A stretch of 36,659 bases of DNA, from positions 1-36,659 of the IMG/VR virus record IMGVR_UViG_3300030107_004138; one strand, given 5' to 3'. The position numbers were made by a program, and so were the translations under genes. A model generated the notes under the pieces. The model did no database searches and was not told where the DNA came from. It saw only the letters and a list, made by a program, of their open reading frames with translations. Positions 19,456 through 36,641 of this stretch are shown here, one piece after another (within the stretch, counting starts at the first letter, position 1; the number at the start of each line of letters is the position of its first letter). Origin of the DNA: a virus.

Positions 19456-20925
19456 ATGGAGTACCAAGAAGTTCAATGTTTTGTTGACAGTTTCAACATG
19501 GATCATATCCCAGTAGGGCCTCAAGCTGAACTAATAGAAAGAATACAGCATTTAAATACATTAGTTCCTACGCCTTTTAAAGATAGATCTGATAAAAGGT
19601 TTCCATTTGTAAAGTTTGACGTAACAAAAAAATTTGGCTGGAAACCTGGCACATATAAAAACGCCAAAATTGTAAAAGATTACCTTAATTGCGTATATGA
19701 AGGTGTACATAATTATGGAAATATTAAAAATGTATGGAGAAAAGAAGAAAACAATAGGTATGGTTATTATCATACAAGATTTAAGAAAGAATTGTTTCAA
19801 ATTGATGATATTCTTTATAATAAAAGATCAACAAATGCTATTTGGGTAGAAGATGATAATGAAATAGAAGAAATAAAGAATAAAGTTCGAACAGATATTT
19901 TTGACATGGTAAAAGAATATGTTTCTTATATGAAGAATATAATCAAAATACCTGTACAATTTCACACAATAAGAGGTATTTCTGAAGCAACAGAATTATT
20001 TAATACTATTGTACAAGATACGTGGAAATATGACTCTGCAGTTGCAAATATTGTATTAGTAATTGAAGGACAATATTCTCGCATTGTTGTGTTTCAACCA
20101 TTTATTGATCTACAAATGAATGTTTATAAAGTTGAAGAAACTTATCCAATATTTAAATATCCTGTTGGAAAAATAATTGGTTCAATTAACTTAACTCTAG
20201 ATAGTATGATTAGATCTTCTTTATCATTAAAAAGGAGTAGATGGGATGGTGGAATTGGTACAAAATATTGGTATAAACCATTAATAAATGGATTAAAGCA
20301 TCCATTTGTACAATATCCTGTAAGGCGACAGGGAAGAGTTGCTGAACATCCAGACAATTGGGAAATATTATTTAATAATCAAGGAAATCATTGCCAAGGT
20401 AACATAGATGAAATTAACGGAAGACTGAAATTAATAAATCTTGTTAAATGGTCTGAAAATTGTTATACATGGCTAACTACATTTAGAACAGGAGTAACTC
20501 ATCCATTAAATAGTGTCAGCATGGGATACTTTGGACATCCTACAAAGATAGATCCAAATGTAGACGATGATTATTTAGATATGTATGGAATAGATAGAGG
20601 TGCATGTTGGGATAGAATTGCACAATACAATTATGATGTACAAGATAGACAAAGTATCTGTAAACAATATTGTATTAAAGAAATACAAGAAAGTTGTGCT
20701 GGATTTACACGTGATGTTCGAGAAATAAAAGTAGCAAAACTTGTGCAAATTAAGAAAGAAGATTATGATCTCGTGGACAGAGAACATATCTCTTTACCAA
20801 TTATGCGGATTCCTGATGATGCAATAAATGATGATTATTTAATTCATGTAGATAATTCACAAGATTCTGACAACACAGCTGAAGATATGCTTCAATGGAT
20901 GAATAACTATCATATAAACAATTAA
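19456..20925 (+). CDS. Candidate E2-like protein of the ubiquitin-like cassette (489 aa)
   Basis: This gene encodes 489 aa with SD AAAGGAG. No family is recognised over the full length. The N-terminal 220 residues are mixed alpha/beta. Residues 280-345 carry an E2-like pattern: KHPFVQYP (His282-Pro283), AEHPDNWEILF, then NNQGNHCQGNI with Cys313, followed by W-containing helices and THPLNSVSMGYFGHP. Prokaryotic E2-like proteins often show 'HPhv...G.hC.Gn', in which the Cys carries the modifier. The rest of the C-terminal part is acidic, with several cysteines. Its place between the ubiquitin-like and JAB/E1 genes supports the E2 idea. Spacing between HP and Cys is longer than in classical E2s and the protein is about three times the usual size, so the call is tentative. 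Confidence 0.35.
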   Translation: MEYQEVQCFVDSFNMDHIPVGPQAELIERIQHLNTLVPTPFKDRSDKRFPFVKFDVTKKFGWKPGTYKNAKIVKDYLNCVYEGVHNYGNIKNVWRKEENNRYGYYHTRFKKELFQIDDILYNKRSTNAIWVEDDNEIEEIKNKVRTDIFDMVKEYVSYMKNIIKIPVQFHTIRGISEATELFNTIVQDTWKYDSAVANIVLVIEGQYSRIVVFQPFIDLQMNVYKVEETYPIFKYPVGKIIGSINLTLDSMIRSSLSLKRSRWDGGIGTKYWYKPLINGLKHPFVQYPVRRQGRVAEHPDNWEILFNNQGNHCQGNIDEINGRLKLINLVKWSENCYTWLTTFRTGVTHPLNSVSMGYFGHPTKIDPNVDDDYLDMYGIDRGACWDRIAQYNYDVQDRQSICKQYCIKEIQESCAGFTRDVREIKVAKLVQIKKEDYDLVDREHISLPIMRIPDDAINDDYLIHVDNSQDSDNTAEDMLQWMNNYHINN

Positions 20926-20940: not shown

Positions 20941-21834
20941 ATGGAATTTCACATTTCACAAAAAGACTGGAAAAAGGTTATAGATTATGCCCAAGCATCT
21001 TATGATCAATTTTCAGCTGAAATTGGCGGATTTATGATTGCCAAAAAGAACAAAGATGGTGATTATGTTATATCTAATCCAGAAATACTAAAGCAAGAAG
21101 TTACTGGTGGAACAACTGAAATGGAAAAAGAAGCTGTAGCTGATTATTATGTTAAAGCATCTATGAAATATGGAAGTGATGTTCGATTTGTATGGTGGCA
21201 TTCACATGCTAATATGTCTGCTTTCTGGTCTGGGACAGATACAAATACAATGAAAGAATATAAAAGCGGTGACTGGTCAGCGTTTCTTGTGGTAAATATT
21301 CGTGGTGAATACAAATTCAGAGTATGTGTTTGGAACCCAATAGAAGCACATGAAGATATAGATCTAAATATTCTAGGAGCTAAAGCAAGAAAAGTTCCTA
21401 AGACTGTTACAGATTCCGTATCAAAATTATGTTCAAAGCCAACATATACTACACCTAAACGAGTTAATACCTGGACTAAGGAAGATGATAGACAAGTAAG
21501 TCTTTATAATAGTGGATTTGGATATGGTACATATTATGGAAATGGATATTATAAAACTACCATAGAAACAAAAGATGATGACATTATGTTAACATCTACT
21601 GTTGATCATGTAGACAATATATGTAGTTTATATACTGAAGGTATATTCACATATAAAGATTGGCTTTTAGATGTTAAAAAATGGAATAAAACACTTAAGA
21701 AAAAGGATAAAAGCTTTAATATTGTTGAAGTTACGGAGAATGAATTGCATGAAAAATGCGGTTATTATACTGGATATGATCCTATGGATTTAGTAAATTT
21801 GGAGGATAAGAATGAGCAGAATATCGAGGTTTGA
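20941..21834 (+). CDS. JAB/JAMM-family metallopeptidase (deubiquitinase-like)
   Basis: This gene encodes 297 aa with SD AAAGGAG. The N-terminal 140 residues form a JAB/MPN domain: Glu27 in SAEIGGFMIA, then WWHSHANMSAFWSGTD. That segment matches the zinc motif H-x-H-x7-S-x2-D exactly (His87, His89, Ser97, Asp100). These residues coordinate zinc and catalyse isopeptide or peptide cleavage in known members. The remaining 150 residues are Tyr/Gly/Lys/Asp-rich (SGFGYGTYYGNGYY) and have no known domain. The gene overlaps the E1-like gene by 23 bases, so the two are translationally coupled. A likely job is trimming the KKA tail from the ubiquitin-like protein or removing it from targets. Phage tail-assembly JAB proteins are an alternative, but this one is far from tail genes. 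Confidence 0.85.
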   Translation: MEFHISQKDWKKVIDYAQASYDQFSAEIGGFMIAKKNKDGDYVISNPEILKQEVTGGTTEMEKEAVADYYVKASMKYGSDVRFVWWHSHANMSAFWSGTDTNTMKEYKSGDWSAFLVVNIRGEYKFRVCVWNPIEAHEDIDLNILGAKARKVPKTVTDSVSKLCSKPTYTTPKRVNTWTKEDDRQVSLYNSGFGYGTYYGNGYYKTTIETKDDDIMLTSTVDHVDNICSLYTEGIFTYKDWLLDVKKWNKTLKKKDKSFNIVEVTENELHEKCGYYTGYDPMDLVNLEDKNEQNIEV

Positions 21835-22471
21835 GGGCATATTCAACAACTTTGATAATTTTCATTTTCATATACTGGGTTGCGGGGCTATTGGTAGTTC
21901 CGCAGCTACCCAGTTAGCTAGATCTGGTGCAGAGAAATTTACATTATATGACTATGATAAGATTTCTTTGGCTAACGTAGGAGTTAGTCAATATACTGTA
22001 TCTGATATAGGTAAATATAAGGTAGATGTGTTATCTGAATACTTATCTGTGATCTGTGATGACCCAATCGTCATTGAAATAAAAGAAAAGTTTATAGATA
22101 ATGCACAATATGTACCTCATGGAAATGATATTATTGTCTTAGGGTTTGATAATATGTCTAGTAGACTTCAAGCTGTGGAAATAGCTTGTAGTGTAAAGAA
22201 GTTAAAGCCTATAATACTTATAGACGGCAGAATGGGAGCACAAACATATCAACAATATGCTTTCAAGAAACCAACTCTTGATAAGTATAAAAAATGCTGG
22301 TATGATGACGAAGAAGGAAGTGAAGAGCCTTGTACAGCAAAAGCAACTAGTTATTGTAGTAATATGGCTGGTTCATTTATTACTAATTCTGTATCAAAGA
22401 TGGTTACAAGCCAACCATTTGAGAATGAAATAGTATTTCACTTTCCATCTATGTCGTTAATGGCTAAGTAA
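21812..22471 (+). CDS. E1/ThiF-like adenylating enzyme
   Basis: This gene encodes 219 aa with SD TTGGAGG, inside the end of the JAB gene. The Rossmann-like nucleotide motif is HILGCGAIGSSAATQLARSG (residues 20-39; Gly23-x-Gly25-x2-Gly28). The acidic strand is LYDYDKISLANVG (about 45-57), and GFDNMSSR (111-118) follows. The candidate catalytic cysteine is Cys174 in EPCTAKATSYC. In E1/MoeB/ThiF enzymes these parts bind ATP, adenylate the C-terminal Gly of the modifier and accept it as a thioester. The usual N-x-x-R-Q stretch reads NVGVSQ, so the Arg is missing. The protein is a minimal ThiF domain without a ubiquitin-fold domain. Confidence 0.8.
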   Translation: MSRISRFEGIFNNFDNFHFHILGCGAIGSSAATQLARSGAEKFTLYDYDKISLANVGVSQYTVSDIGKYKVDVLSEYLSVICDDPIVIEIKEKFIDNAQYVPHGNDIIVLGFDNMSSRLQAVEIACSVKKLKPIILIDGRMGAQTYQQYAFKKPTLDKYKKCWYDDEEGSEEPCTAKATSYCSNMAGSFITNSVSKMVTSQPFENEIVFHFPSMSLMAK

Positions 22472-22558: not shown

Positions 22559-22708
22559 ATGGTTTATTTAGGAACAGTAGCTGAATGGATAATTGAATTT
22601 CTAATTCTCGGAACAGCTCTTCTTATATGGGCTATAGCTGCGTTTATAATAGCAATGCTAATAAGCCTAGCTATAGATTTTATTAACAATGTAATGAAGG
22701 AAATATAA
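22559..22708 (+). CDS. 49-aa membrane protein
   Basis: ATG 22559 (MVYLGTVAEWIIEFLILG...) is preceded by AAAAAGGAGAAGAAT, whereas a longer frame from 22502 runs through the hairpin and has no SD. One long hydrophobic segment, or two tight ones, spans about residues 8-40 (IIEFLILGTALLIWAIAAF, then IIAMLISLAI), ending in NNVMKEI. Its stop overlaps the start of the ATPase gene as TAATG, so the two are coupled. A membrane role next to a recombination ATPase is unexplained. Confidence 0.6.
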   Translation: MVYLGTVAEWIIEFLILGTALLIWAIAAFIIAMLISLAIDFINNVMKEI

Positions 22709-23454
22709 TGAAATGTTTAATGTTTGACCTTGAACGTGGATCACAAACACTTGGTGGCCCAGAGAGTATTCAAAAATTATTTGGATATCCTGTGTTGTCA
22801 CCTACTACATTTGATCAGTTCAAGAAAATTATATCCGATCTATATACTGTACAAAAAGCAGTACACAAAACAAAGATTGGTAATATTGAGATTGATCAAG
22901 AAGTTCTTGAAACAAAACCTCGAAATGGTACTGAAATTGATGCATTAGTACTTGATACATTTAGCGAATTATCAAAAAAGTATCAAAGAAGCCTTGTTGA
23001 CAAAACAGGTAAAATGAAAATGCAAGATTGGGGTAAGCTTAAGAATACTCTTGATATGTTATTGGAGTTTATTACAAGAATACCTGGTGTATTAGTAATG
23101 AATGTTCATAGCAAATTAAAAGATCTTGATGATGGTACAACAAAAGTATTGCCTTATATTGATGGTAGCACTAAAGAAGACATTAGTAAATGGTTTGATT
23201 TTGTATTTTATACAAGAACTATTGAGTCTCCAAGTGGTAAAACTGAATATATTTGGCAAACAAAACATACTGAAAAGTATGATCATGCTAAAGACAGAAC
23301 TAATTTACTAGATGCTGAAATACCCCAAGACTTTCAGCTAGTATTAGACGCTGTAAAAAAGAAGAAATTCACATCTGCTAAGATTCTCATCATAGGAAGT
23401 CCAGGATCTGGTAAAACGTGGAGTCTTAAAACCTTAATTAAGGAGAAGTCATAA
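22708..23454 (+). CDS. Sak4/AAA_24-like recombination ATPase, apparently circularly permuted
   Basis: This gene encodes 248 aa, starting by TAATG overlap. The elements of the RecA-like Sak4/AAA_24 fold are present in rotated order. The protein begins with the strand normally following the P-loop (MKCLMFDLERGSQTLGGPES). It continues with Walker B, IDALVLDTFSELSKKY (Asp83), DWGKLKNTLDML, the sensor strand VLVMNVHSK (His134) and WFDFVFYTRT. It ends with KILIIGSPGSGKTWSLKTLI, a textbook Walker A (Gly230-Lys236-Thr237) only 12 residues from the C-terminus. In ordinary members the Walker A is at the N-terminus. The next gene encodes an SSB-like protein, which suits single-strand annealing or recombination. 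Permutation is inferred from motif order. Confidence 0.7.
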   Translation: MKCLMFDLERGSQTLGGPESIQKLFGYPVLSPTTFDQFKKIISDLYTVQKAVHKTKIGNIEIDQEVLETKPRNGTEIDALVLDTFSELSKKYQRSLVDKTGKMKMQDWGKLKNTLDMLLEFITRIPGVLVMNVHSKLKDLDDGTTKVLPYIDGSTKEDISKWFDFVFYTRTIESPSGKTEYIWQTKHTEKYDHAKDRTNLLDAEIPQDFQLVLDAVKKKKFTSAKILIIGSPGSGKTWSLKTLIKEKS

Positions 23455-24011
23455 TGGCTATAAAAACAATGAGTGCTTCAACTGGTGGAGATTGGTCTAT
23501 TGGTTGGAAAATGGTAACTCTAAAAAATGCTAAATACGGAATGTATAATAATGATGTACGTTATGTTGATGCACATTTTGAAGAGTATCCTGAAACAATA
23601 AATCTACGCATGTATGAAGCTAAATCTAAAGATACTGGTGAAGAATTTGCAATAGCAAGACTATTTCGCTTAGCAAATGCTGGTATAATGGGTGAAGTTG
23701 TTGATTCAACAGGTAAAAAGAGTATTCAATATGATGATGATGCTACAAACCTGAATGGAAAACAAATACAAGTATTCTTCTATAAAAACGATGAAGGATA
23801 TTTTCGTGTATTAAATCGTACAGCTCCTGTAGAGCAAGATGGAGAAGTATTATCCTATACTGAAAAAGATGTTAATTACTGGAAAGCACAAGGTGAAAAG
23901 TATTATGAACAGTACAAGAAACCTGCTGATGATGATGGAATTACGACAATGGGTATAGATGAGATAAAGAATACTTTAACTCAAAACGATGATGATGAAC
24001 CTCCATTCTAA
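23454..24011 (+). CDS. Single-stranded-DNA-binding-like protein
   Basis: This gene encodes 185 aa and starts by TAATG overlap with the ATPase gene. The first 130 residues are beta-rich with aromatic and basic residues (WSIGWKMVTLKNAKYG, VRYVDAHFEEYPETINLRMYE, GKQIQVFFYKNDEGYFRVLNRT), suiting an OB-fold. The C-terminal 50 residues are acidic and flexible, ending NDDDEPPF. That ending resembles the DDDIPF tip by which bacterial SSBs recruit partners. Coupling to a Sak4-like ATPase and proximity to the primase-helicase support a replication/recombination SSB role. The fold itself is not proven here. Confidence 0.6.
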   Translation: MAIKTMSASTGGDWSIGWKMVTLKNAKYGMYNNDVRYVDAHFEEYPETINLRMYEAKSKDTGEEFAIARLFRLANAGIMGEVVDSTGKKSIQYDDDATNLNGKQIQVFFYKNDEGYFRVLNRTAPVEQDGEVLSYTEKDVNYWKAQGEKYYEQYKKPADDDGITTMGIDEIKNTLTQNDDDEPPF

Positions 24012-24098: not shown

Positions 24099-24407
24099 AT
24101 GAAATATATAAAATGGTCAACTATTGACTTAGTTAAAACTCTCTTAAAAGAACATCATCACCTTAGAGATAGTGATAATAAACTTCTTGCTAATGTTTGG
24201 TTCTTAAAAGCTGAAAAAGTTGAAGAAGGAGCTATGGATTTTTTAAAATTGATAGCTGACGGGAAACTACCATCTTCAGAATCTATTAGACGGTGTCGTC
24301 AAAAATTACAAGAAGAGAATCCTGAACTGCGTGGAAAATTATGGGATAAAAGACATAAAATGCAAACACAGGTACAGGAAGAAATAAGGGAAATGGAAAA
24401 TGATTAA
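24099..24407 (+). CDS. Small helical protein upstream of primase-helicase
   Basis: This gene encodes 102 aa with SD AAAGGAG. It is predicted mostly helical: WSTIDLVKTLLKEHHHLRDSD, AMDFLKLIADGKLPSSESIRRCRQKLQEENPELRG, and a charged C-terminal helix rich in Gln/Glu. The segment 'LPSSESIRRCRQKLQE.NP.LRG..W..R' recurs in small phage proteins of unknown function near replication genes, and may be a helix-turn-helix. Its end overlaps the start of the primase-helicase by 8 bases, so the two are probably co-produced. A regulator or loader role is only a guess. Confidence 0.55.
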   Translation: MKYIKWSTIDLVKTLLKEHHHLRDSDNKLLANVWFLKAEKVEEGAMDFLKLIADGKLPSSESIRRCRQKLQEENPELRGKLWDKRHKMQTQVQEEIREMEND

Positions 24408-26139
24408 AGAATTTGCTTTATCATTATCAAATAGACATCATTTTCGTGAAAGCAATAAGATGTCTGAACTTGAAGGTACACCCCAAGATACTTTCATGTC
24501 TTTATGGGACTATGATGAATATGTAATAGAATATTATAATAAAAAGAAAAAGTTAGCTGGATTTGATGGTCTTATCTATATGCCTGATGAATTAATATTA
24601 GACGTAGATGGTAAAGATCTTGCTCAAGCTAAACATAAAACATTATTATTAATTGAATTATTATATAAGAAACAAATCCCATATCAAATATACTTTAGTG
24701 GTCGTGGATTTCATGTAAATATTCCTGCTTTAGCATTTAAATGGAAACCGTCAAAGAATTTACATTTGAATGTAAAAGAAAAATTAACAGCTGTAGGTAT
24801 ATATAAATATGCTGATCCAGCTGTAATTGATAAAACCAGAATTATAAGAATACCCAATACTCTTAATACTAAATCTGGAAAATGGAAAATACCACTAACT
24901 GAATCAGAGTTTAGAAGTTTCAATCTTAATTTCAAAAATCAACCACGAAGAAACTTTAAGTATAATGAAATGGTCTGTGAACCAGTCTTCGATGTGCTTG
25001 AAAGATCTGTGAAAAAACAAGAAACTAAAGTTGTGAAATCTGAGCTTGGAAGAGATCCAGACCCTACCCATTATACATGTATACAACTCATGTTAAAAGG
25101 TGTAAGTCAAGGAAGTAGACATATGACTGCTTTAAGACTTGGTTCTCATTTACGATGGAGATATCCTGAAAGTACAGTTCGTCTTATCATGGAAGATTGG
25201 AGACAACGTGTTGATAAACACAATGTCCCATTTACAAAAGAAGAACTAGATAAAATTATTACTTCTTGTTATACAGCAAATGAAAATAGCGGATATAACT
25301 ATGGATGTAATGATTCTATAAAAGACTCTCTCTGTCAACAAACTTGTTTTCTATATAAATCAAAGAAAAGTCAATCGGTTATGAATGCAACTGATATGGA
25401 AAATGTATTAATTGATTTCTATACTAGTAATATAAAACCTATAGACTTAAAAGATTTATATGAACAATCAAAAGGTTTTCCTATTTATCCTGGTGAAGTA
25501 GTGTTAATACAAGCACCACCTAAAAGTATGAAAACAATGTTACTCCTTAATTGGATAAATGCATTTAAAAAACATACATATATGATGGAACTTGAAATGT
25601 CTCCAAGGCAAATTATGTCAAGATTGATAATGATTGAAAAAGGTTGGGATGAAAAAGACATAGAAGTGCATTACTCAAGGAATAAAAATGGATTAGATGT
25701 GAATTTTGATTGGCTAAAGGTTGATTATAATTCATGTTATCCATATGAAATAGAAAAACGCATTCAAATGATGCCTAATAAGCCTGAAGTGCTTGTTGTT
25801 GATCATCTTGGTTTATTAAGAAGTAGGATGAAAGATAATAATATGAAGGTTGAAGAAGCATCTCAAGTATTAACTGAATTAGCTGTACAATACAACCTTA
25901 TAGTATTTGTAATAAGTGAGATAACTAAAAGTGCATTTCATGAAGGTATGAATATAGCATCCTCTAAAGGTTCATTTAGAGTAGCTTATAATGTAAATAA
26001 AGTGTTATCCTTACAACCTTTATTTGACGTAGGTGAAAAGAATCTTATAAAAGGATTAAAGCTTGAGAGTACTGCTAATCGTGAAAAAGAAACATTATAT
26101 GTTGATCTTTCACTAGATGGACTAAGGTTAGTAGGATGA
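24400..26139 (+). CDS. AEP-type primase fused to a RecA/DnaB-like helicase
   Basis: This gene encodes 579 aa. Residues 1-200 form an archaeo-eukaryotic primase-like (prim-pol) domain: metal-binding pair LILDVDGKD (Asp68, Asp70), IYFSGRGFHVNIP (Ser100...His105) and DKTRIIRIPNTLNTKSG (Arg147/Arg150). Residues 215-320 are a helical PriCT-like segment ending in four cysteines (290, 303, 312, 316), probably metal-binding. Residues 355-579 form a RecA-like ATPase with LIQAPPKSMKTMLLL as Walker A (Lys378, Thr379), MMELEMSPRQIMSRLI, Walker B VLVVDHLGLL (Asp468) and SSKGSFRVAYNVNKVL. Both Walker A glycines are replaced (Ala372, Met377). It would prime and unwind DNA. No replicative polymerase is visible in the window. 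Confidence 0.8.
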   Translation: MIKEFALSLSNRHHFRESNKMSELEGTPQDTFMSLWDYDEYVIEYYNKKKKLAGFDGLIYMPDELILDVDGKDLAQAKHKTLLLIELLYKKQIPYQIYFSGRGFHVNIPALAFKWKPSKNLHLNVKEKLTAVGIYKYADPAVIDKTRIIRIPNTLNTKSGKWKIPLTESEFRSFNLNFKNQPRRNFKYNEMVCEPVFDVLERSVKKQETKVVKSELGRDPDPTHYTCIQLMLKGVSQGSRHMTALRLGSHLRWRYPESTVRLIMEDWRQRVDKHNVPFTKEELDKIITSCYTANENSGYNYGCNDSIKDSLCQQTCFLYKSKKSQSVMNATDMENVLIDFYTSNIKPIDLKDLYEQSKGFPIYPGEVVLIQAPPKSMKTMLLLNWINAFKKHTYMMELEMSPRQIMSRLIMIEKGWDEKDIEVHYSRNKNGLDVNFDWLKVDYNSCYPYEIEKRIQMMPNKPEVLVVDHLGLLRSRMKDNNMKVEEASQVLTELAVQYNLIVFVISEITKSAFHEGMNIASSKGSFRVAYNVNKVLSLQPLFDVGEKNLIKGLKLESTANREKETLYVDLSLDGLRLVG

Positions 26140-26336
26140 TATCTATCATAACAACAAAAGATCTTTCATGTCAACATCCCGAAGAAGATATGGAATATCA
26201 ACCAAAAGAAGAAGATACTAATACTCCTGAATCACTCACATGTGGAGTTTGCGGAATGGATTTAGATCCAAACTTAAAAGCTCCAGATTGGGATGCATTA
26301 GCAAAAGAGGAAATCTATGAAACGGACAATGAATGA
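26136..26336 (+). CDS. Small zinc-finger-like protein
   Basis: This gene encodes 66 aa, starting by ATGA overlap with the primase-helicase stop. It has LSCQHPEED near residue 10 and LTCGVCGMDL near residue 35: a Cys-x-His plus a Cys-x2-Cys pair, enough to bind one zinc ion as a ribbon. The rest is acidic. Such minimal zinc proteins in phage replication operons are often unassigned. Its end overlaps the start of the Gp157-like gene by 20 bases. Confidence 0.5.
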   Translation: MISIITTKDLSCQHPEEDMEYQPKEEDTNTPESLTCGVCGMDLDPNLKAPDWDALAKEEIYETDNE

Positions 26337-26811
26337 AATAACCACAGATATTATGACTCAACAAATGAATATGGAAATGGCGTTAAATCCAGAAGAATTT
26401 AATGTTCAAATTCAAGAACTATTTGTTGAGCTATATGACAAAGAAGATGGTATATACTGGTTTTACCGTAATAATGAAAAAAGAATGGAAATGGTAGACG
26501 AGCATATAAATAAATGTAAATCAATAAAGAAAATGCTTCATAATAGCAATGAACGGGTTAAGCAGCTTGTTATCCAAACACACAGAGAATTAAAGACTAT
26601 GCCCAAAAATTCAGAATTTAATCCTCTAAAGATAAGAAAATCCTCTGGTGCAGTTGAAGTAATAGACGAAAATGACATACCCGATGAATACTGGGTAACA
26701 GTTCAAACCAAAAAGCTAGATAAAAAAAGAATACTAAGTGAATTGAAAGAAGGATCTGAAATACCTGGAGTTCGTCTTATTAAGAAGGATTTTATAGGAG
26801 GTTTTAGATAA
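26317..26811 (+). CDS. Gp157-like (Siphovirus Gp157 family) protein
   Basis: This gene encodes 164 aa with an SD-like GAGGAAA before ATG 26317. The N-terminal half is a helical coiled coil (MNMEMALNPEEFNVQIQELFVELYDKED, RMEMVDEHINKCKSIKKML). The C-terminal half carries the family's characteristic ending, IPDEYWVTVQTKKLDKKRILSELKEGSEIPGVRLIK, that is 'P.eyw......DKK.I...Lk.G..vpGv.l'. Members are common in phage early operons and have been linked loosely to phage resistance and recombination; their biochemical role is not settled. It lies between the primase-helicase and small genes leading to a resolvase. Confidence 0.7.
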   Translation: MKRTMNEITTDIMTQQMNMEMALNPEEFNVQIQELFVELYDKEDGIYWFYRNNEKRMEMVDEHINKCKSIKKMLHNSNERVKQLVIQTHRELKTMPKNSEFNPLKIRKSSGAVEVIDENDIPDEYWVTVQTKKLDKKRILSELKEGSEIPGVRLIKKDFIGGFR

Positions 26812-27992: not shown

Positions 27993-28218
27993 TTTGTCAA
28001 CTTATGAATATGATAAAGCATATGTAAAGCAAACTGAAGAAATGGTGGGAAAATACGAAAAAAAAATAGATTTAATGCTTTCAGATGCAAAAATACTTGT
28101 TGATGCATTAAACAAAGCAAATGAAAATCTAAATAAAGCAGAAGAAAGAATAAAGTTAATAGCAAATACATATCATCTTACAGAAGCAGTAGGATATTTT
28201 AAGGAACCTATTAAATGA
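27985..28218 (+). CDS. Small coiled-coil protein, unknown (77 aa)
   Basis: This gene encodes 77 aa with SD TAGGAG seven bases before ATG 27985, overlapping the end of the preceding gene. It is nearly all helix, with heptads across YVKQTEEMVGKYEKKIDLM and a second block, LVDALNKANENLNKAEERI. Its stop overlaps the resolvase start (ATGA). It could be a partner of the downstream Hjc-like nuclease. No function can be assigned from sequence. Confidence 0.5.
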   Translation: MTDLSTYEYDKAYVKQTEEMVGKYEKKIDLMLSDAKILVDALNKANENLNKAEERIKLIANTYHLTEAVGYFKEPIK

Positions 28219-28535
28219 CACATCCTAGTAAAGTTAAAGGAAACACATTTGAAAGAGAATGCGTAAATAAAGCGAAAAATAAGGGTATAGAAGCTAAAAG
28301 AGCTTACGGGTCTAATGGAATGTCACTTGGACTAGAAGAAGAGGTTGACGCCCTTATTGGACAATATAAAGTACAATGCAAAAGAAGAAAGCGTATCGCA
28401 AAATGGATTAAGCCTCCTAATTGTTGTGATGTTGCATTAGTACGTGAAGATAGGGGAGAAGCCTATATCATTATGGAATACGATGAATGGCTAGACCTTA
28501 TTAAAAGAGCAGAACTATACCTAAAACTAGGATAG
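28215..28535 (+). CDS. Holliday-junction-resolvase-like (Hjc-type PD-(D/E)XK) nuclease
   Basis: This gene encodes 106 aa. Compact resolvase features are visible: SKVKGNTFERECVNKAKNKGI with Glu13, a Ser/Gly loop (YGSNGMSLGLEEE), EVDALIGQ with Asp45, and YKVQCKRRKRI giving Q-x-K (Gln54, Lys56). The C-terminal strand-helix is DVALVREDRGEAYIIMEYDEWLDLI. The order E...D...QxK and the size match Hjc/VRR-NUC-type enzymes that cut branched DNA, useful before packaging. It is the last early gene. Its stop overlaps by nine bases the stop of the convergent 958-aa gene, leaving no room for a separate terminator. Confidence 0.65.
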   Translation: MTHPSKVKGNTFERECVNKAKNKGIEAKRAYGSNGMSLGLEEEVDALIGQYKVQCKRRKRIAKWIKPPNCCDVALVREDRGEAYIIMEYDEWLDLIKRAELYLKLG

Positions 28536-31403
28536 TAATGTTAAAGCCTGGAGAGCAGCATCCGCATTTTGTGTGGGCTGCTTTCTCTTCGGGTATTTAT
28601 ACCTCATCCAATCTTGTTTAAATATAGGATGTAAGTTTCTTCCTACCCATTTTTTAGCTGAATCTCTTATATCTCGTATATCTTGGTCTGGAAATACGCC
28701 AGTTTCTAACCTCATCGCATCTATAAGACCACGTTCATAAAGAAGAGGCATACTATATGTCCAAGTCCTAGCCATTTGTGAGTTTATAAGTGAAAGTGCT
28801 TTATACTGTTTTACTCTATCATCTACAAAAGCAAGATCTTCTCTATAAACAGCATCTTTATCCATTTCTCTAAAATTCTTTACTTCAGCTAAAGATAAAA
28901 GAAATCCAACATTGGGCCCAAGAAAATAATAACCACCTTGTCCATATGTCTTTTTTTCCAACTTTTTTACAGCTTCAGGATCATCTCTGTCTGTAGCAAA
29001 CCATGAATATGCAGCATCTACTGTTTGTGCAACATCATTACTTAATACACTATCTGTCCTAATATTAGTAAGTGGTGCAAATATATTATTAATCATTCCT
29101 GTTACAATACCTAATCTCATCATAACAAACATTTCTTCACTTGTAAAATCACCTGCTTTCATTGATACTTTAGCTTTATTATACCAATCCATCATCATAT
29201 CTAGATTTGAAAATCTATAATGCATAAACTGACCAAGAACTGTTCCTGCTCTTCCTTTAAGACCTGGCCCACCTTGTAATGCTTTAGCTTTAGCCCATTT
29301 AGCATATTCATAATGAATATCCAAAACTGAGTTATATCCTATTTGACCTGCTTCATTAGCCATCCATTTTTGTATTTTTTCACTAGCACCTTCAGCCTTT
29401 ATATTTATTCCTGATTTATTAGCTATCCATTCAGGAGACATATTTTGAAGGTTTTTGTAAGCAATCGCAAATCCCATTCTAAATGTTCTTGACCTATTCC
29501 AGTCTTCAACAACTTTATGCATAAAAGCTGCTTTGTCAGATATTGAAGATGCTCCTCTAGCAATTATATCTGTAACGCCATCAGTAGACCTTACTATTTC
29601 ACCCTCAGCACTTACTTTTAAGCCTTTACCCGTAAAAAAAGATTCCTGCAATGCACCTTTAGATGCTGCAGATATATCACCCTTACCTTTAAATGCATCA
29701 AGGATAGTAGAGCTTGCTTCTTTACCGTCAAACCATAAAAGACCAAATCTTTTAGCTTGACTATTTGCAAGTTCAGCATTTTCTGTTCCACCAGCTTCAG
29801 TATAAAATCTTCTAGCATCTTTTAATCCCTTAAATCCCCACCTATTTAATTCATACACTCTTTGAGTTCCATTACGAAGAGCACTACGCATATTACCGCC
29901 TAATAACCTAAAATATGTTAATGCACTTATTGTTCTCATAATATTGTCACTAACTACAGTATCACCAGCATCAAGTTTTTGAACTGTATTATATACATCA
30001 GTAGCAACTCTTAAATGATGATCTAATGCTTCAGCAACTGTTTCGTTTTTTGCTATTTTAGCAGGAGCTAAATGTTCATTCATTAATGTATCAGTTGCAC
30101 GCTTAAAACTGTCTTTTACGTGTATTTTATAATTAAATAAAGAAACATCACCAACGTATTTGTTAAGAAACATAAATGGATCAAGACTATATTCGCTATC
30201 TACAGAAGACCTCGTTTTTACTCTATCTATAACACCTTCAAGATTAGTGACTTCTTCTCTAATATTTTTCATTAATTCAGGTAGCGTTTCTCCTTTAAGA
30301 GGTTCTTTTCTAAGAGCTCTTTCTATCTTCCCAAGTATTTTTGGAATGCCTAGTACATATTGTGGCATATATTGCCTATTCGAAACCATGTAATTATTGC
30401 CTTTTCTTACAGCATAATCACTACCTTCAGTAAATCCAAAAGTTTGCATTTGCTCATCGGCTTTAAAGTACTCAAGGTCTTTTATTGGTTGACCTTCTTT
30501 ATCAACAACTCTTTGAAATTCAATTTCTTTTATGCGGTTTTTAATATCTGCTAATATCTTATCCATACCTGGAATATTGCTATCTTTGTTAATAGATATT
30601 ACTTTTTGCAACCCTCTTATTAAGTTAATTGAAGTTGATTTTCTTATTTCATTCCATTCACGCTTCATATTATTTAATAAAGCTTCTTCTTTAGCACCAA
30701 ATCCATACTTGCTTCTAAGCTCTGGAATACCAGCACCTTGAAACACTTCTGATAATATTAAATTAGCTCTACCAGCACCTTTTGTTAGAAGGTTCATTTT
30801 TTTATGTCTTAATTCTTGATATAAACCTTGATTTATTGTTTTACCTGCTGATTTATTTGCAATAATTGGCTCTAGCTGTGCTTCTAATTTGCTATATTCT
30901 GTAGGAGGCCCACCTAATGCACCTGAAAACTTTTTAAAATTATGCAATATGTCGTTAATACGTTTGTTATTATCTACGTTTTCTCTTCTAAAAAACCCTG
31001 TTTCAGCTACTAATTCTTGTTGGTATTTATTAAGCTCTGGTAATCTCATTAAAATACGTCTTGGAAGTTTTAAATTTGCCATTATAGCTCCATCTTTTGT
31101 TCCAAGTATTCCATTAAACTCTTGAAGTCTTATTTCAAATTTTTTAACATCTTTTAAATTAGGTATTGCACCTTTTATTGGGTCTAGTGGCAAGCCAGTA
31201 GCTTCTTCATATATACGTTCAAATTGTTCAAATGTGTTGTACTGAGCATCTTTTATATTTTTATATCTTGCACCAATTTCCCAATCAGCAGCTATTTTAT
31301 TCATACGCTGATGTACTTTCTTTTTCTTTTCAGGAGAAATTCTTTCTCCTTTAGCTCTTTTTTTATTTAATACATGAGAAGCACAAGACAATATACTAGA
31401 CAT
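28527..31403 (-). CDS. Large internal-virion / ejection-type protein (958 aa)
   Basis: The start is ATG 31403 (MSSILSCASHVLNKKRAKGER), because GGAG lies six bases before it; a TTG 12 bases upstream overlaps that SD. The protein is mostly helical and basic. It has long amphipathic stretches (about residues 30-330), and a central part with YFRLLGGNMRSALRNGTQRVYELNR and ISDKAAFMHKVVEDWNRSRTF. The C-terminal part is Gly/aromatic (YGQGGYYFLGPNVGFLLSLAEV). Large proteins with such 'LG..R.al.n..Q' and C-terminal PLxRFG-like parts occur in phages as internal or ejected virion proteins. No catalytic motif is evident. It follows the 1711-aa gene in the same direction, which suggests co-packaging. Confidence 0.5.
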   Translation of the reverse strand: MSSILSCASHVLNKKRAKGERISPEKKKKVHQRMNKIAADWEIGARYKNIKDAQYNTFEQFERIYEEATGLPLDPIKGAIPNLKDVKKFEIRLQEFNGILGTKDGAIMANLKLPRRILMRLPELNKYQQELVAETGFFRRENVDNNKRINDILHNFKKFSGALGGPPTEYSKLEAQLEPIIANKSAGKTINQGLYQELRHKKMNLLTKGAGRANLILSEVFQGAGIPELRSKYGFGAKEEALLNNMKREWNEIRKSTSINLIRGLQKVISINKDSNIPGMDKILADIKNRIKEIEFQRVVDKEGQPIKDLEYFKADEQMQTFGFTEGSDYAVRKGNNYMVSNRQYMPQYVLGIPKILGKIERALRKEPLKGETLPELMKNIREEVTNLEGVIDRVKTRSSVDSEYSLDPFMFLNKYVGDVSLFNYKIHVKDSFKRATDTLMNEHLAPAKIAKNETVAEALDHHLRVATDVYNTVQKLDAGDTVVSDNIMRTISALTYFRLLGGNMRSALRNGTQRVYELNRWGFKGLKDARRFYTEAGGTENAELANSQAKRFGLLWFDGKEASSTILDAFKGKGDISAASKGALQESFFTGKGLKVSAEGEIVRSTDGVTDIIARGASSISDKAAFMHKVVEDWNRSRTFRMGFAIAYKNLQNMSPEWIANKSGINIKAEGASEKIQKWMANEAGQIGYNSVLDIHYEYAKWAKAKALQGGPGLKGRAGTVLGQFMHYRFSNLDMMMDWYNKAKVSMKAGDFTSEEMFVMMRLGIVTGMINNIFAPLTNIRTDSVLSNDVAQTVDAAYSWFATDRDDPEAVKKLEKKTYGQGGYYFLGPNVGFLLSLAEVKNFREMDKDAVYREDLAFVDDRVKQYKALSLINSQMARTWTYSMPLLYERGLIDAMRLETGVFPDQDIRDIRDSAKKWVGRNLHPIFKQDWMRYKYPKRKQPTQNADAALQALTLLS

Positions 31404-31505
31404 AACATACTCCAAGAAAGTTTGAAAAATTAATCGGCTGGGGGGTACGACTTTTAAAATTAAATTTCAAATTTTTATATATATAGATAAACATTTTCGT
31501 TATTT

Positions 31506-34500
31506 TTAATCTAGATTGAGGCATTTGAAAAGTTCTTCTACTCTACCCTTAGTTGATTCTTTTATTGTCCCACCTTGTCCCATATTTCTACCCCTATATG
31601 CATCCATAACACCAAAGTTTCTTACTTCTACATCACCAAATGTATTAGTTTTTCTATCAAAAACTTTCATCATAAATTGTTGGTCTACGGGAATCCCAGG
31701 TCTTTTTGCAGTACCTCTTTCCATTTCTTTTGATGCTCTATAAAGAGTAGCGGAATCAACAAGTTTTTTACCTGACATATAATCATACATAATTCCTGCA
31801 GCTCGCCTTTCTCTCGCACTACCATCTCTTAACAATTGGAATATTCCTTTGTTTAAGTATTGAGCATCAGTCATAAATCCATTTGGTAACTCTGTGGGTT
31901 CTGTAAAACCACCTTTTTCTACCTTTCTCATATCAACTTCAATACCAGTACGTTCTTGAACATAATGATTTCTTGACATGTTAATAAAGTCTCTGAGTAA
32001 TTCATTGGCACTTATTTTATCCAACCCGCCTTTTGCTTGGATACTTCCATTTGCAACTTGTGCTAAAGTATTGTACACAGTTTTTGCTAAATTATTTTCT
32101 ATATATTTTATTGAACCTATACTTGCTGTCCTAGAATGATTTCCAAATCTTATTGTTTCTATAGGAGATACAGTTTCATCAAAACGAGGTCTTAACATCC
32201 TAGCAAGTAATGCAAATTGCCTTATAGGATTATCAGCAAAATCTGGGCTTGCTAATTTATCAAGAACTAATGCAGTACGTCTAGCAGCATATTCACCTAA
32301 AGATGCTTGAGTGCGATCAGGTAGGTTTGAATAAGCATCAGCTATAGAAGCTTTTAATTTACCATATTCTGCATTGATAAATATTTGCTCACCTCCAGAT
32401 ATATAATCTATCCTCCCATCTTTGTGTACATATTTTACTTGACCGCCAAATGCTTTATAATCAGCTCGCAATCCCATTTGGATCTCACCTTCAACTATTT
32501 CATATCTATGACCATTTATTACCAGCTTATCTGAAGGACTTAAAAACTTTATATTAGACTTACCTGGAAGAACAACTTCTTTTGTTTCACCACTTTTATT
32601 TATAATTACTACAGGTTTATTTTTATAGTTTGTATATGCTCCTGCTTGTTTTACTTTTTTTCTTGCAGGATTACGATCATATGTATTTTCTGAATTACCT
32701 GGATCATAAGATAATCTCTCTTCAATAATTGATTTTAATTCTTCTGTTCTTATTTTTTTCTCTACTAATCTTTGATATTCTGCACTACTTTGTATATCAC
32801 CGCCTCTTCCTCCTAAGCTATTAAGATCTTCTAACCTTCTATTTATTCTTCTTAGATCCGCAGACATAAATTCAAGTTGAACAATATCACCAGATTTCAT
32901 TTGCATTTCTCTCATTGCTCTTTCAGCTATCCTATTCATCTGAAATTGATTTGCTAATTCTGGCTGTATGTTATTAGGAAGTGTCCAGTTATTTGGAACC
33001 CTACCTGAATCTATATACTCTAATATTCTATGAGTACTTGGCCTGCTTTCATCAAATGAATGAGTTTTATTAGCTATGCTATTTAATTCTTTCATTGCAA
33101 AATCAAATGGATTCTGAGATCTATCAAAGAAATTATTTGCAGATTCATACATACCTGAATTATCATATTCTCCTTTTATTACTTTATGATTTCTTCCGTG
33201 TTTAGGAAGAATAGAGAACATAAGGTTTTGTCTTGCACGTTGATAGTCTTGTAGGGTTGCTGACATATCTCTATTGGTTTCATCAACAGTAGTACCTTTA
33301 TTGTATCTTAAGTATTTATTTATAGGAGAAATAAGACCATAATATATATCATCCCGTACTTGTTTCATGCTTTCAGATTGATAGTTAATATTTTCTTTTA
33401 ATATTGAACCGTCTTTTAAATCACGAAGTTCAAACAATCCTTTATGTTCTACTCCTCCACGATTGAATCCAAAAAATAACTCTCTCATTAAAGCATCTGG
33501 ATTTTCTGTATAAAACTTAGGATTCTGTTTATACATATCTAAAAATAGTTTTACACTAGAAGATACCTCATCAACTGTATCAAAATATCTAAGCTTATCT
33601 ACATTTAATCTAACTTCCATCATTCTATGAGGGTCTTTTAAATGTCTCATTTGTATCAGTAAAGGTGACTCTCTATATATATTATGTAAGTATGTAAGGG
33701 TTTGATGCATCTTTACAAATCTACCTCTTGCAAGGTCAGTAGCATTCATTTCACCTTTATATTGTTGAGGGTCTCCTTCAAATGTAAATAGCTTTGGATC
33801 CGCCTTGCTAAATATTTGATCAGCTATTGCATTTAATCCTTTGATATCATTAACTGTTCTATATCCAGAAAGCCTTGCCGCTTCAGCCCATAATCTATTA
33901 GGAGCAGCAAGAAATGAGGATGATTTATCCATATCATAGTCAGCATCTTGTGGGTTAATAGCATCAGAGTGATTCATTCTACTACTATTACCTGCTAAAT
34001 CTCCATTATGAGTAATGATCCTACCATCTTTACCTTCAAATGCTTTCAATCTAGAGATAACAAGGTCACCTGCCTGGTTTCTTGGTTGTCTATTATTTAT
34101 AGAACCAATAGCCATTGTATTGTCAAACTGATAAAGTTCTGTCATCGCTTCACTATAAGTAGAACCACTTTTTACCCTTGCTAAGAAATCGTTTTCTTTT
34201 TTCTCTACTTGTTTAAATAAATTTCTATTTAATGCTTGTGCTTTTTTATTATCTGATTCTGAACCTTGGTATGATATCTTAGAATCATTATATATATCTC
34301 TTAGATTACCATCTTTATCTATACCTTTTCCTTCTACAATAAGATATTTTTCAGCACCACGCTTAACCATAAAAACATCTGCTGTTCTTTGTTGAAGTAT
34401 AGGTTGCTTAATAGCAGCATCTATATCCTTAACTTCTTTTCCAAAGTTTGAATACTTAACACGCTGTATAATAACACTTTGCACATCTGGTCTATCATTT

Positions 34501-36641
34501 CCACCACCCAACTTAAAAGGTTTTTCAGCAGAGTGTTTTGATTGTAAGAATTCACCATATAACTGTACAGATTTAGTTCCATCTGCCTCTGTTCTTACTA
34601 CAGAAGTTTTTAAACCACCCATGTCTGCTGTCATTACATCTAAAGAACCTTCTGGTACACGACCTGCAGCAATCATACCATTGTTCATAAAATAAGGTAT
34701 TATCTTTTCTTCTATTTTTGTTCTTTGCCAAGGTGATGTAAGTAAGCCATCATGTTTTAAGAAATGGTCTATCCCTGTATTTAACCAAGTCATATCTCCT
34801 GTTTCAGAAGAGTGGGCAAATAAATCTTTTGCAAGTCTTGTAGCATAATAAGGATCTACATAATTTTGAAAAGAATCATAGACATTTTTTAACTTAGCAT
34901 CAAGATTAATCCATTCCTTAATTCCTACATTATGATGCAAGTGAACACCTAAATTAGATCCAACTAAGGGATCGTGAGGTTGGCCTAGTGATTTTAAATT
35001 AATAGACTCAAATGGTATTTCACTTATATTGGTTTTGTCAAAAATAAGATTACCTTGCTTAGAAAGCCAGTCACTAACAGACCCAAAGTCTTTAGATAAA
35101 GCTTCAAAGTTTTCTATAGGCTTTAGTGATGCATGTACATTTCTACCACCATCTCTTATTGTAGATTCCATTGCTTTTACATCTGTATTATACCAGTCAC
35201 TTGTTTTATTGTTTCTAAATTCATTTATTTTATTAGAAGAATTAAATGTTATTGCATCTACGCCAAGCTGAGAAAGTAAAGCATCAAATTCAGGGTTGTA
35301 TTTAAATGCTGTTTTTGCATAAAATTCTTTTACCCTGCCATACTGTGACATGTCAGCCATATCTGTTTTAATATCTGTGTGAGATATAGTTGGTTTTATA
35401 CCTCCAACTTTAATGTCTTTAATACTCCCATCTGGATTGAAAGAAATCATATCAGGACTGATACCGCCCATCATTGCGAGATTAGCTACAAAAGCACGTT
35501 TAGATAAAAAGGTTTCACCATCTACTATTGACTTTGTTAGTTGTTCATAATTTTTAATATTTTCATTATAAGTTCTTTCATTGATAACCCCAGTGTTTTT
35601 CAATTCTGTTAGTTCAGCTTTTTTATGATCAATAGATGAAAATATATTAACTTTTTTACCTTCATGAACCATTTCATCAGCAACAGATAGAATTTTTAAC
35701 TTTGGAAATTTTGCTTTCTTGTCTTTCGGTAAAAATAGCCTAGCTTGATCTAATACATTTTTAAAGAAACCAGATTTATCTGAAACTGCAGCACCTTCTA
35801 AGAATGACCTTACTCTTGCAAGGTTTTCTTCATGGCCTACAAATCCATTTTTCATTTCACTTAACTTTAGATACTTCCATGTCTTTTTTCTTTCTTCTGG
35901 AGTAAGTTCAGCCCACTTTCTTATAAGAGAAGGTCTATCATTTATCAATCTTGTAAGTACTACTGCATCATGTATATCGTTATCTTTTAAATCAGAAGTT
36001 TTTTCATTAATCCTATCAACTAATTCTCTTATATTTGATGGAAATTGGTTTTGGTCTAATGATGCCTGAAGTTTTTCATAAAGATGACCACCTTCAATTC
36101 TATTTCCATTAGCATCTTCCCCTGATCTGCGAAAACCTGAAAGAAGATCTTGACCTATTCTATTATCACGACCTATTCTAACAAGCATTAATGTGCTTTC
36201 ATCAGCCGCTATAACTTTAAATCTTTGCTTACTTAAATCAATTGTTTCATTACCCTGTGCCCTAGCATGGTCTTCTACTTTCTTTTTATCACCTAAAAAT
36301 TCTCTAAAGCCATTTGCCATCTCAATAGGAATACCTTCACCAGATTCTATTTCTTTAATGATACGATCCATTTGCCTTCTTGAAGGTTTTGAAACATATT
36401 TACCATCTATGTAGAAACTATTGCTAAGTAATGATATCTCAGATGTGGCGTTTAAGGCTGAAATTACACCCTGTATGCCGTGTTTTTCTGTATAGCCTAC
36501 TTGTTTATCAGCTAGCTCTAAACGACCTGATCTATAGCTATATTGTTTAATAGGCATACTGCTAAAGTACGCAGTAGTAATAGAACTTATATCAGATAAT
36601 AATCTTTGATTAAATCTATTCCACCCACCTTCAGGTTCCAT
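31506..36641 (-). CDS. Giant virion protein, candidate virion RNA polymerase with DxDxD motif
   Basis: This gene encodes at least 1711 aa. ATG 36641 is a possible start (GAGGT nine bases upstream), but the frame stays open to the window edge, so the N-terminus may extend beyond it. Near the middle, QAGDLVISRLKAFEGKDGR is followed by NHSDAINPQDADYDMDKSSS. Asp901, Asp903 and Asp905 form D-Y-D-M-D, with Lys906 next. This resembles the crAss-like-phage virion RNA polymerase pattern 'v.Ri..f.......(Q)GADFDIDK', where the DxDxD in a double-psi barrel binds catalytic magnesium. The second barrel with its basic residues was not found. The remainder is a hydrophilic mixture without known domains. A large ejection protein without polymerase activity is the alternative. 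Confidence 0.45.
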   Translation of the reverse strand: MEPEGGWNRFNQRLLSDISSITTAYFSSMPIKQYSYRSGRLELADKQVGYTEKHGIQGVISALNATSEISLLSNSFYIDGKYVSKPSRRQMDRIIKEIESGEGIPIEMANGFREFLGDKKKVEDHARAQGNETIDLSKQRFKVIAADESTLMLVRIGRDNRIGQDLLSGFRRSGEDANGNRIEGGHLYEKLQASLDQNQFPSNIRELVDRINEKTSDLKDNDIHDAVVLTRLINDRPSLIRKWAELTPEERKKTWKYLKLSEMKNGFVGHEENLARVRSFLEGAAVSDKSGFFKNVLDQARLFLPKDKKAKFPKLKILSVADEMVHEGKKVNIFSSIDHKKAELTELKNTGVINERTYNENIKNYEQLTKSIVDGETFLSKRAFVANLAMMGGISPDMISFNPDGSIKDIKVGGIKPTISHTDIKTDMADMSQYGRVKEFYAKTAFKYNPEFDALLSQLGVDAITFNSSNKINEFRNNKTSDWYNTDVKAMESTIRDGGRNVHASLKPIENFEALSKDFGSVSDWLSKQGNLIFDKTNISEIPFESINLKSLGQPHDPLVGSNLGVHLHHNVGIKEWINLDAKLKNVYDSFQNYVDPYYATRLAKDLFAHSSETGDMTWLNTGIDHFLKHDGLLTSPWQRTKIEEKIIPYFMNNGMIAAGRVPEGSLDVMTADMGGLKTSVVRTEADGTKSVQLYGEFLQSKHSAEKPFKLGGGNDRPDVQSVIIQRVKYSNFGKEVKDIDAAIKQPILQQRTADVFMVKRGAEKYLIVEGKGIDKDGNLRDIYNDSKISYQGSESDNKKAQALNRNLFKQVEKKENDFLARVKSGSTYSEAMTELYQFDNTMAIGSINNRQPRNQAGDLVISRLKAFEGKDGRIITHNGDLAGNSSRMNHSDAINPQDADYDMDKSSSFLAAPNRLWAEAARLSGYRTVNDIKGLNAIADQIFSKADPKLFTFEGDPQQYKGEMNATDLARGRFVKMHQTLTYLHNIYRESPLLIQMRHLKDPHRMMEVRLNVDKLRYFDTVDEVSSSVKLFLDMYKQNPKFYTENPDALMRELFFGFNRGGVEHKGLFELRDLKDGSILKENINYQSESMKQVRDDIYYGLISPINKYLRYNKGTTVDETNRDMSATLQDYQRARQNLMFSILPKHGRNHKVIKGEYDNSGMYESANNFFDRSQNPFDFAMKELNSIANKTHSFDESRPSTHRILEYIDSGRVPNNWTLPNNIQPELANQFQMNRIAERAMREMQMKSGDIVQLEFMSADLRRINRRLEDLNSLGGRGGDIQSSAEYQRLVEKKIRTEELKSIIEERLSYDPGNSENTYDRNPARKKVKQAGAYTNYKNKPVVIINKSGETKEVVLPGKSNIKFLSPSDKLVINGHRYEIVEGEIQMGLRADYKAFGGQVKYVHKDGRIDYISGGEQIFINAEYGKLKASIADAYSNLPDRTQASLGEYAARRTALVLDKLASPDFADNPIRQFALLARMLRPRFDETVSPIETIRFGNHSRTASIGSIKYIENNLAKTVYNTLAQVANGSIQAKGGLDKISANELLRDFINMSRNHYVQERTGIEVDMRKVEKGGFTEPTELPNGFMTDAQYLNKGIFQLLRDGSARERRAAGIMYDYMSGKKLVDSATLYRASKEMERGTAKRPGIPVDQQFMMKVFDRKTNTFGDVEVRNFGVMDAYRGRNMGQGGTIKESTKGRVEELFKCLNLD

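Follow-up and report, generated by a model that had tools for sequence, protein, structure and literature searches.

The Sak4 proteins (PHROG 124/2872, PF13479), represented by HK620 HkaL, Seuratvirus CAjan gp51 and the phage 52A protein (8rc5), are a known family that shares with the protein described here a RecA core with Walker A and Walker B motifs. HK620 Sak4 shows ATP-dependent DNA binding and annealing of SSB-coated DNA, is stimulated by the neighbouring SSB via an NDYPPF tail and does not act as a mediator for RecA in vitro (PMC5928155). Sak4 resembles RadB, a Rad51 paralogue, and ssb adjoins up to 80% of sak4 genes, a linkage that is not universal among canonical members (PMC5928155). 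The phage 52A protein forms filaments (PMC11846896). RecA, Rad51 and RadB likewise have the RecA fold, with a catalytic glutamate after beta-2 and a Walker B aspartate; they differ from the present protein in their canonical order and, for RecA and Rad51, in extra DNA-binding domains. P-loop NTPase cores are seldom permuted in nature; the textbook case is the circularly permuted GTPases. These proteins (RsgA/YjeQ, YqeH and RbgA/YlqF) provide a known precedent of a permuted P-loop NTPase core (PMC6912228, PMC2741578). However, they belong to TRAFAC, are cut elsewhere (G4-G5-G1-G2-G3), serve ribosome assembly and are not RecA-like.

The window, the whole 36,659-nucleotide stretch of DNA that was analysed, is part of a 59,189-base IMG/VR virus record; the minus strand carries terminase, portal and major head protein genes, and the plus strand a replication/recombination operon. 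Within this operon, the open reading frame at 22708-23454 (plus strand, 248 aa) encodes a circularly permuted Sak4/AAA_24 RecA-core ATPase; the permutation is shown, whilst ATPase activity is inferred. The reading frame is real, with an ATG at 22708 and TAATG overlaps with the genes on either side. Its product begins with MKCLMFDLERGS, carries Asp83 within ALVLDT and ends in AKILIIGSPGSGKTWSLKTLIKEKS, with GSPGSGKT at residues 230-237. A sequence-only reading had reported this N-terminal start, the Walker B Asp83 and the terminal P-loop, and had proposed that the normal family order was cut and rejoined. All of these claims held, the last through profile dot-plot comparisons that show a two-segment swap, and the structure prediction that it had asked for also favoured this reading. 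The protein passed the profile, motif and fold tests for the Sak4 family and failed that for the canonical motif order, in which the P-loop comes first. It further resembles Sak4 in its AKDR C-terminal region (Seuratvirus type), its adjacent SSB-like gene and the same operon logic, whereas its motif order is circularly permuted, its P-loop is C-terminal and no N-terminal segment precedes beta-1.

In Pfam, the whole protein matched AAA_24 (PF13479) at 53.6 bits against a cut-off of 27, and its profiles point to this family rather than to a GTPase. When the protein was split in two, residues 2-198 corresponded to AAA_24 profile positions 24-195 (46.1 bits), and scanning the last 43 residues separately placed residues 223-243 on positions 2-22. 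PHROG 124 (Sak4) was swapped too, the C-terminal fragment matching positions 34-63 and the remainder starting from position 67; both AAA_24 and PHROG 124 were matched by 45/45 permuted members. A profile of 11 canonical phage Sak4 proteins from annotated records matched each of the same 45 proteins twice in swapped order, with positions ~60-220 falling on residues 55-218 and positions 4-28 on residues 222-246, and the permuted profile run on canonical proteins gave the reciprocal swap. In profile comparison this small panel aligned with the core alone; the nearest canonical group found, the Seuratvirus/Bixiavirus type, for which 55 viral contigs were fetched, gave both segments. With hhalign, query 7-219 aligned to template 40-238 of the Seuratvirus-type Sak4 (prob 96.4, E 1e-9) and query 225-249 to template 15-39 (prob 94.7, E 6e-8), the two segments tiling the canonical protein with almost no gap or overlap. 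Residues 4-216 correspond to the part of canonical Sak4 after the P-loop, and the C-terminal 25 residues to the canonical P-loop segment. The P-loop is N-terminal in 43/46 canonical homologues, the remaining three lacking a motif match. The C-terminal fragments of 35 permuted proteins, scanned alone, all matched one of the two Sak4 PHROGs and in 34 cases the other; other P-loop families were matched in at most 18/35, indicating that the terminal P-loop is Sak4's own and was not borrowed.

The conserved residues can be followed along the permuted chain on the plus strand. The new N-terminus (22711-22743) is a strand equivalent to canonical beta-2 that aligns with canonical ILISAESG, which directly follows the P-loop helix; its DLExG motif holds D7, E9 and G11, all invariant in 45 permuted sequences. 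Aligning by family knowledge, we take Glu9 to be the counterpart of RecA Glu96, the catalytic carboxylate. The Walker B strand ALVLDT (22942-22959) aligns with canonical Walker B and contains an invariant Asp83. His134 (23107-23109), also invariant, lies where the following core strand ends and probably occupies the sensor position, an inference by analogy with RecA Gln194. The equally invariant AKDR motif (residues 194-197; 23287-23298) is also found near the C-terminus of canonical Seuratvirus-type Sak4, CAjan having AKDRSGRLDA. At the fusion junction (23332-23376), the canonical C-terminal helix (209-218) and a 5-residue linker take the place of the canonical termini. The canonical beta-1 strand, KILIIG, follows at what is now the C-terminal end (23377-23397; a strand in the AlphaFold2 model, template columns 15-39) and leads into the Walker A P-loop (23395-23418), where G230, P232, G233, G235, K236 and T237 are invariant, giving GxPGxGKT. 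Identity to the window protein falls as low as 53% in this 45-member alignment.

AlphaFold2, supplied with the same alignment, returned a single confident domain (pLDDT 91.8, pTM 0.89). The helix at 209-218 precedes the junction, and the C-terminus comprises a strand at 224-230 and a helix at 238-243, with pLDDT of 95-97 across about residues 181-240. Any strand in a monomer model has to find its pairing partner inside that monomer, and the model therefore predicts that the C-terminal P-loop completes the ATP site in cis. The best PDB fold match was the cryo-EM Sak4 structure 8rc5 (E 3e-3). The fold search is sequential and is thus unable to show the permutation itself, and the TM to 8rc5 was only 0.44-0.49. 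A PDB sequence search gave generic P-loops and a weak match to 8rc5, and nothing else. In BFVD the best match was A0A516LUR7 (248 aa, 46% identity over 244 aligned columns, TM 0.92), which is evidently permuted too, since it is collinear with the window protein over its full length; the matches after it were Sak4/RecA-like phage proteins.

The permuted order is not peculiar to one contig. We found 101 distinct relatives in IMG/VR, of which two are cut by contig ends; all 99 complete proteins, which diverge by up to ~47%, have the P-loop after the core. One of these (L207) was sorted as 'other' by the overlap rule of our script and proved to be swapped on inspection. Spacing between AKDR and GxPGxGKT is 36 residues in 45/45 aligned members. 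Comparison with four close relatives gave a dN/dS of ~0.07-0.09 over the whole gene, which indicates purifying selection. Permuted proteins fell on one branch of a tree of the shared region, with only moderate support (80/76); this is consistent with a single origin of the clade. Permuted Sak4 is found in a widespread family of uncultured, largely marine-looking phages. No match to the permuted protein was found among cultured phages and plasmids, none in a permuted-profile search of genome contigs, and our search for intermediates with a P-loop at both ends, or for a canonical Sak4 in the same operon, likewise found none. As a separate observation, the tails beyond GKT differ in length among the permuted proteins, from 7 to 77 residues. 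A similar tail, ENTND, follows the P-loop helix in several relatives (e.g. L035, L039, L045 and L047); it may be functional or may merely result from the overlap of this gene end with the start of the SSB gene.

The gene immediately downstream (23454-24011, plus strand) encodes an SSB-like protein; its start codon and the stop codon of the permuted gene share TAATG, and its product has an acidic C-terminal tail, DDDEPPF. It lay directly downstream of the permuted gene in all loci examined, and most of its relatives end in similar acidic tails of the IPF, LPF, PPF or PW type. No Pfam SSB match was obtained; four members weakly matched SSB PHROG 378 and three PHROG 743. The predicted structure (pLDDT 85) suggests an OB fold, matching PrgE (probability 1.00, E 1.8e-3, TM 0.36-0.46). 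PrgE is an OB-fold ssDNA-binding protein. A profile comparison of this family with the SSBs adjoining canonical Sak4 was not significant. The linkage of the two genes, already claimed in the sequence-only reading, held and supports an annealing or recombinase role, although the ATPase and annealing activities themselves are inferred. On the plus strand the operon continues with a primase-helicase (DnaB_C plus a primase part; 24400-26139), followed in the window by a Gp157/Mu Gam-like end-protection gene (26317-26811) and a RusA-like Holliday junction resolvase (28215-28535). The order JAB, ThiF, permuted gene, SSB-like gene, primase-helicase, Gam recurs among relatives, although some genes are lost or truncated.

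An ERF annealing protein (PF04404) fills the slot of the permuted gene in sister phages whose SSB and primase-helicase are the same. This protein holds the same position upstream of the SSB but belongs to another Pfam family and gave no P-loop match in our scan. Among 134 distinct loci, 98 carry the permuted gene, 35 carry ERF, none carries both and one is cut. The 98 to 35 ratio is biased, since many of the loci were retrieved through the permuted gene and others through the primase-helicase; mutual exclusion nevertheless holds throughout. That an annealing protein occupies the same slot, and never alongside the permuted gene, supports a role in single-strand annealing. Separately, a contig of a more distant relative, binned with a Neomarinimicrobiota genome (L236, 1527-2213), encodes a primase-helicase with 42% identity, the SSB-like gene and a protein that is ERF-like by eye without profile confirmation; the bin is possibly a hint of the host or possibly a binning error.

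We consider it likely that the protein is a natural circular permutation of Sak4 with an ATP site closed in cis and a Sak4-like annealing function; here the permutation, its conservation and invariant motifs, the operon and the exchange with ERF are shown, the cis folding is predicted, and ATPase and annealing are inferred. The canonical N- and C-termini are connected through a short linker, and the new chain ends arise between the P-loop helix and beta-2. In the predicted fold, the C-terminal strand and P-loop complete the core of their own chain in cis, so that Glu9, Asp83 and His134 again form part of a normal ATP site. Most probably the protein loads in an ATP-dependent manner on SSB-coated single-stranded DNA, as canonical Sak4 does, and would anneal complementary strands during phage replication and recombination, with help from the adjacent SSB through its acidic -PPF tail. 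Since the protein has retained the residues that form the ATP site, its partner SSB and its slot among the genes, ATP-dependent annealing with its own SSB is the most likely function by inference.

Other explanations can be weighed against this one. The C-terminal P-loop might be domain-swapped, completing the ATP site of a neighbouring protomer so that ATP binding would depend on assembly. ATP sites of the RecA/Rad51 fold lie at protomer interfaces, Sak4 forms filaments (PMC11846896), and a terminal P-loop segment is exchangeable in principle. However, the monomer model closes in cis, with pLDDT of 95-97 over about residues 181-240, and the linker is only ~5 residues long with its spacing fixed in 45/45 members, so we regard a swap as unlikely. 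A bolder version would make this the first natural circular permutation of a RecA-fold recombinase with its P-loop acting in trans, an ATP site formed only in the filament and variable tails (7-77 residues after GKT) lying beside that site and tuning it; this too seems improbable. It is similarly doubtful that the protein is a RadB-like regulator or mediator that keeps the fold and the ATP site and aids loading or replication without annealing. The resemblance of Sak4 to RadB (PMC5928155) and the location of the gene within a replication operon favour such a role, but the gene shares a slot with ERF annealing proteins, never together with them, and HK620 Sak4 was no RecA mediator in vitro (PMC5928155).

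A truncated Sak4 bearing an unrelated C-terminal P-loop as a separate mini-domain is very unlikely and is already contradicted. Generic P-loop families do match the last 40 residues weakly, but Sak4 PHROGs match the C-terminal fragments far more consistently (35/35 and 34/35) than other families do, the two segments together cover the canonical profile with hardly any gap or overlap, the model is one confident domain and there is no P-loop gene upstream. The sequence-only reading had named a separate mini-domain as a finding that would refute it; the P-loop instead lies within the single domain, at the constant 36-residue spacing. We also considered and ruled out a split gene whose P-loop would be encoded upstream, since the 68-aa ORF found there is a membrane-like peptide without a P-loop. 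Finally, the metagenomic origin of the record leaves room for an assembly or frameshift artefact, the other outcome named as a refutation. This did not occur: many independent contigs have the same order, with 99 complete proteins among the 101 distinct relatives all swapped, and the gene is under purifying selection. An artefact is therefore refuted and all but excluded.

The Sak4 family is known, whereas a circularly permuted recombinase core seems undescribed. We found no permuted Sak4, RecA or other recombinase ATPase in the open-access literature searched (subscription papers and preprints were outside its scope), whilst permuted GTPases were found; the earlier claim that the arrangement is undescribed is supported only within these limits. 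The permutation shows that a RecA core can be opened at the centre of its ATP site, where the P-loop helix would otherwise lead on to the catalytic-Glu strand, and that many phages have retained the resulting arrangement. It places free termini beside this site and is a natural experiment on which connections in the chain are important when filaments form in an ATP-coupled way. The family also supplies new candidate annealing proteins for recombineering. Annotation pipelines label the protein Sak4 or AAA domain, and its order goes unnoticed.

The surroundings of the operon yielded further observations. Directly upstream of the permuted gene lie two overlapping genes (20941-22471), one for a JAB-domain protein whose HxH...SxxD motif is complete (HSHANMSAFWSGTD) and one that is ThiF/E1-like. 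PADLOC JAB and E1-E2 models match this pair, which is also present in many relatives and in L232, an ERF-type sister phage. A subset of relatives conserves, upstream of the JAB gene, a 489-aa protein (19456-20925) that belongs to no family known in Pfam or PHROG. The window also contains very large ORFs at 28527-31415 (962 aa), 31506-36641 (1711 aa) and 3493-7344 on the minus strand (1283 aa). The latter two have no PHROG match, and the 1283-aa product contains long Gln-rich, repeat-like stretches.
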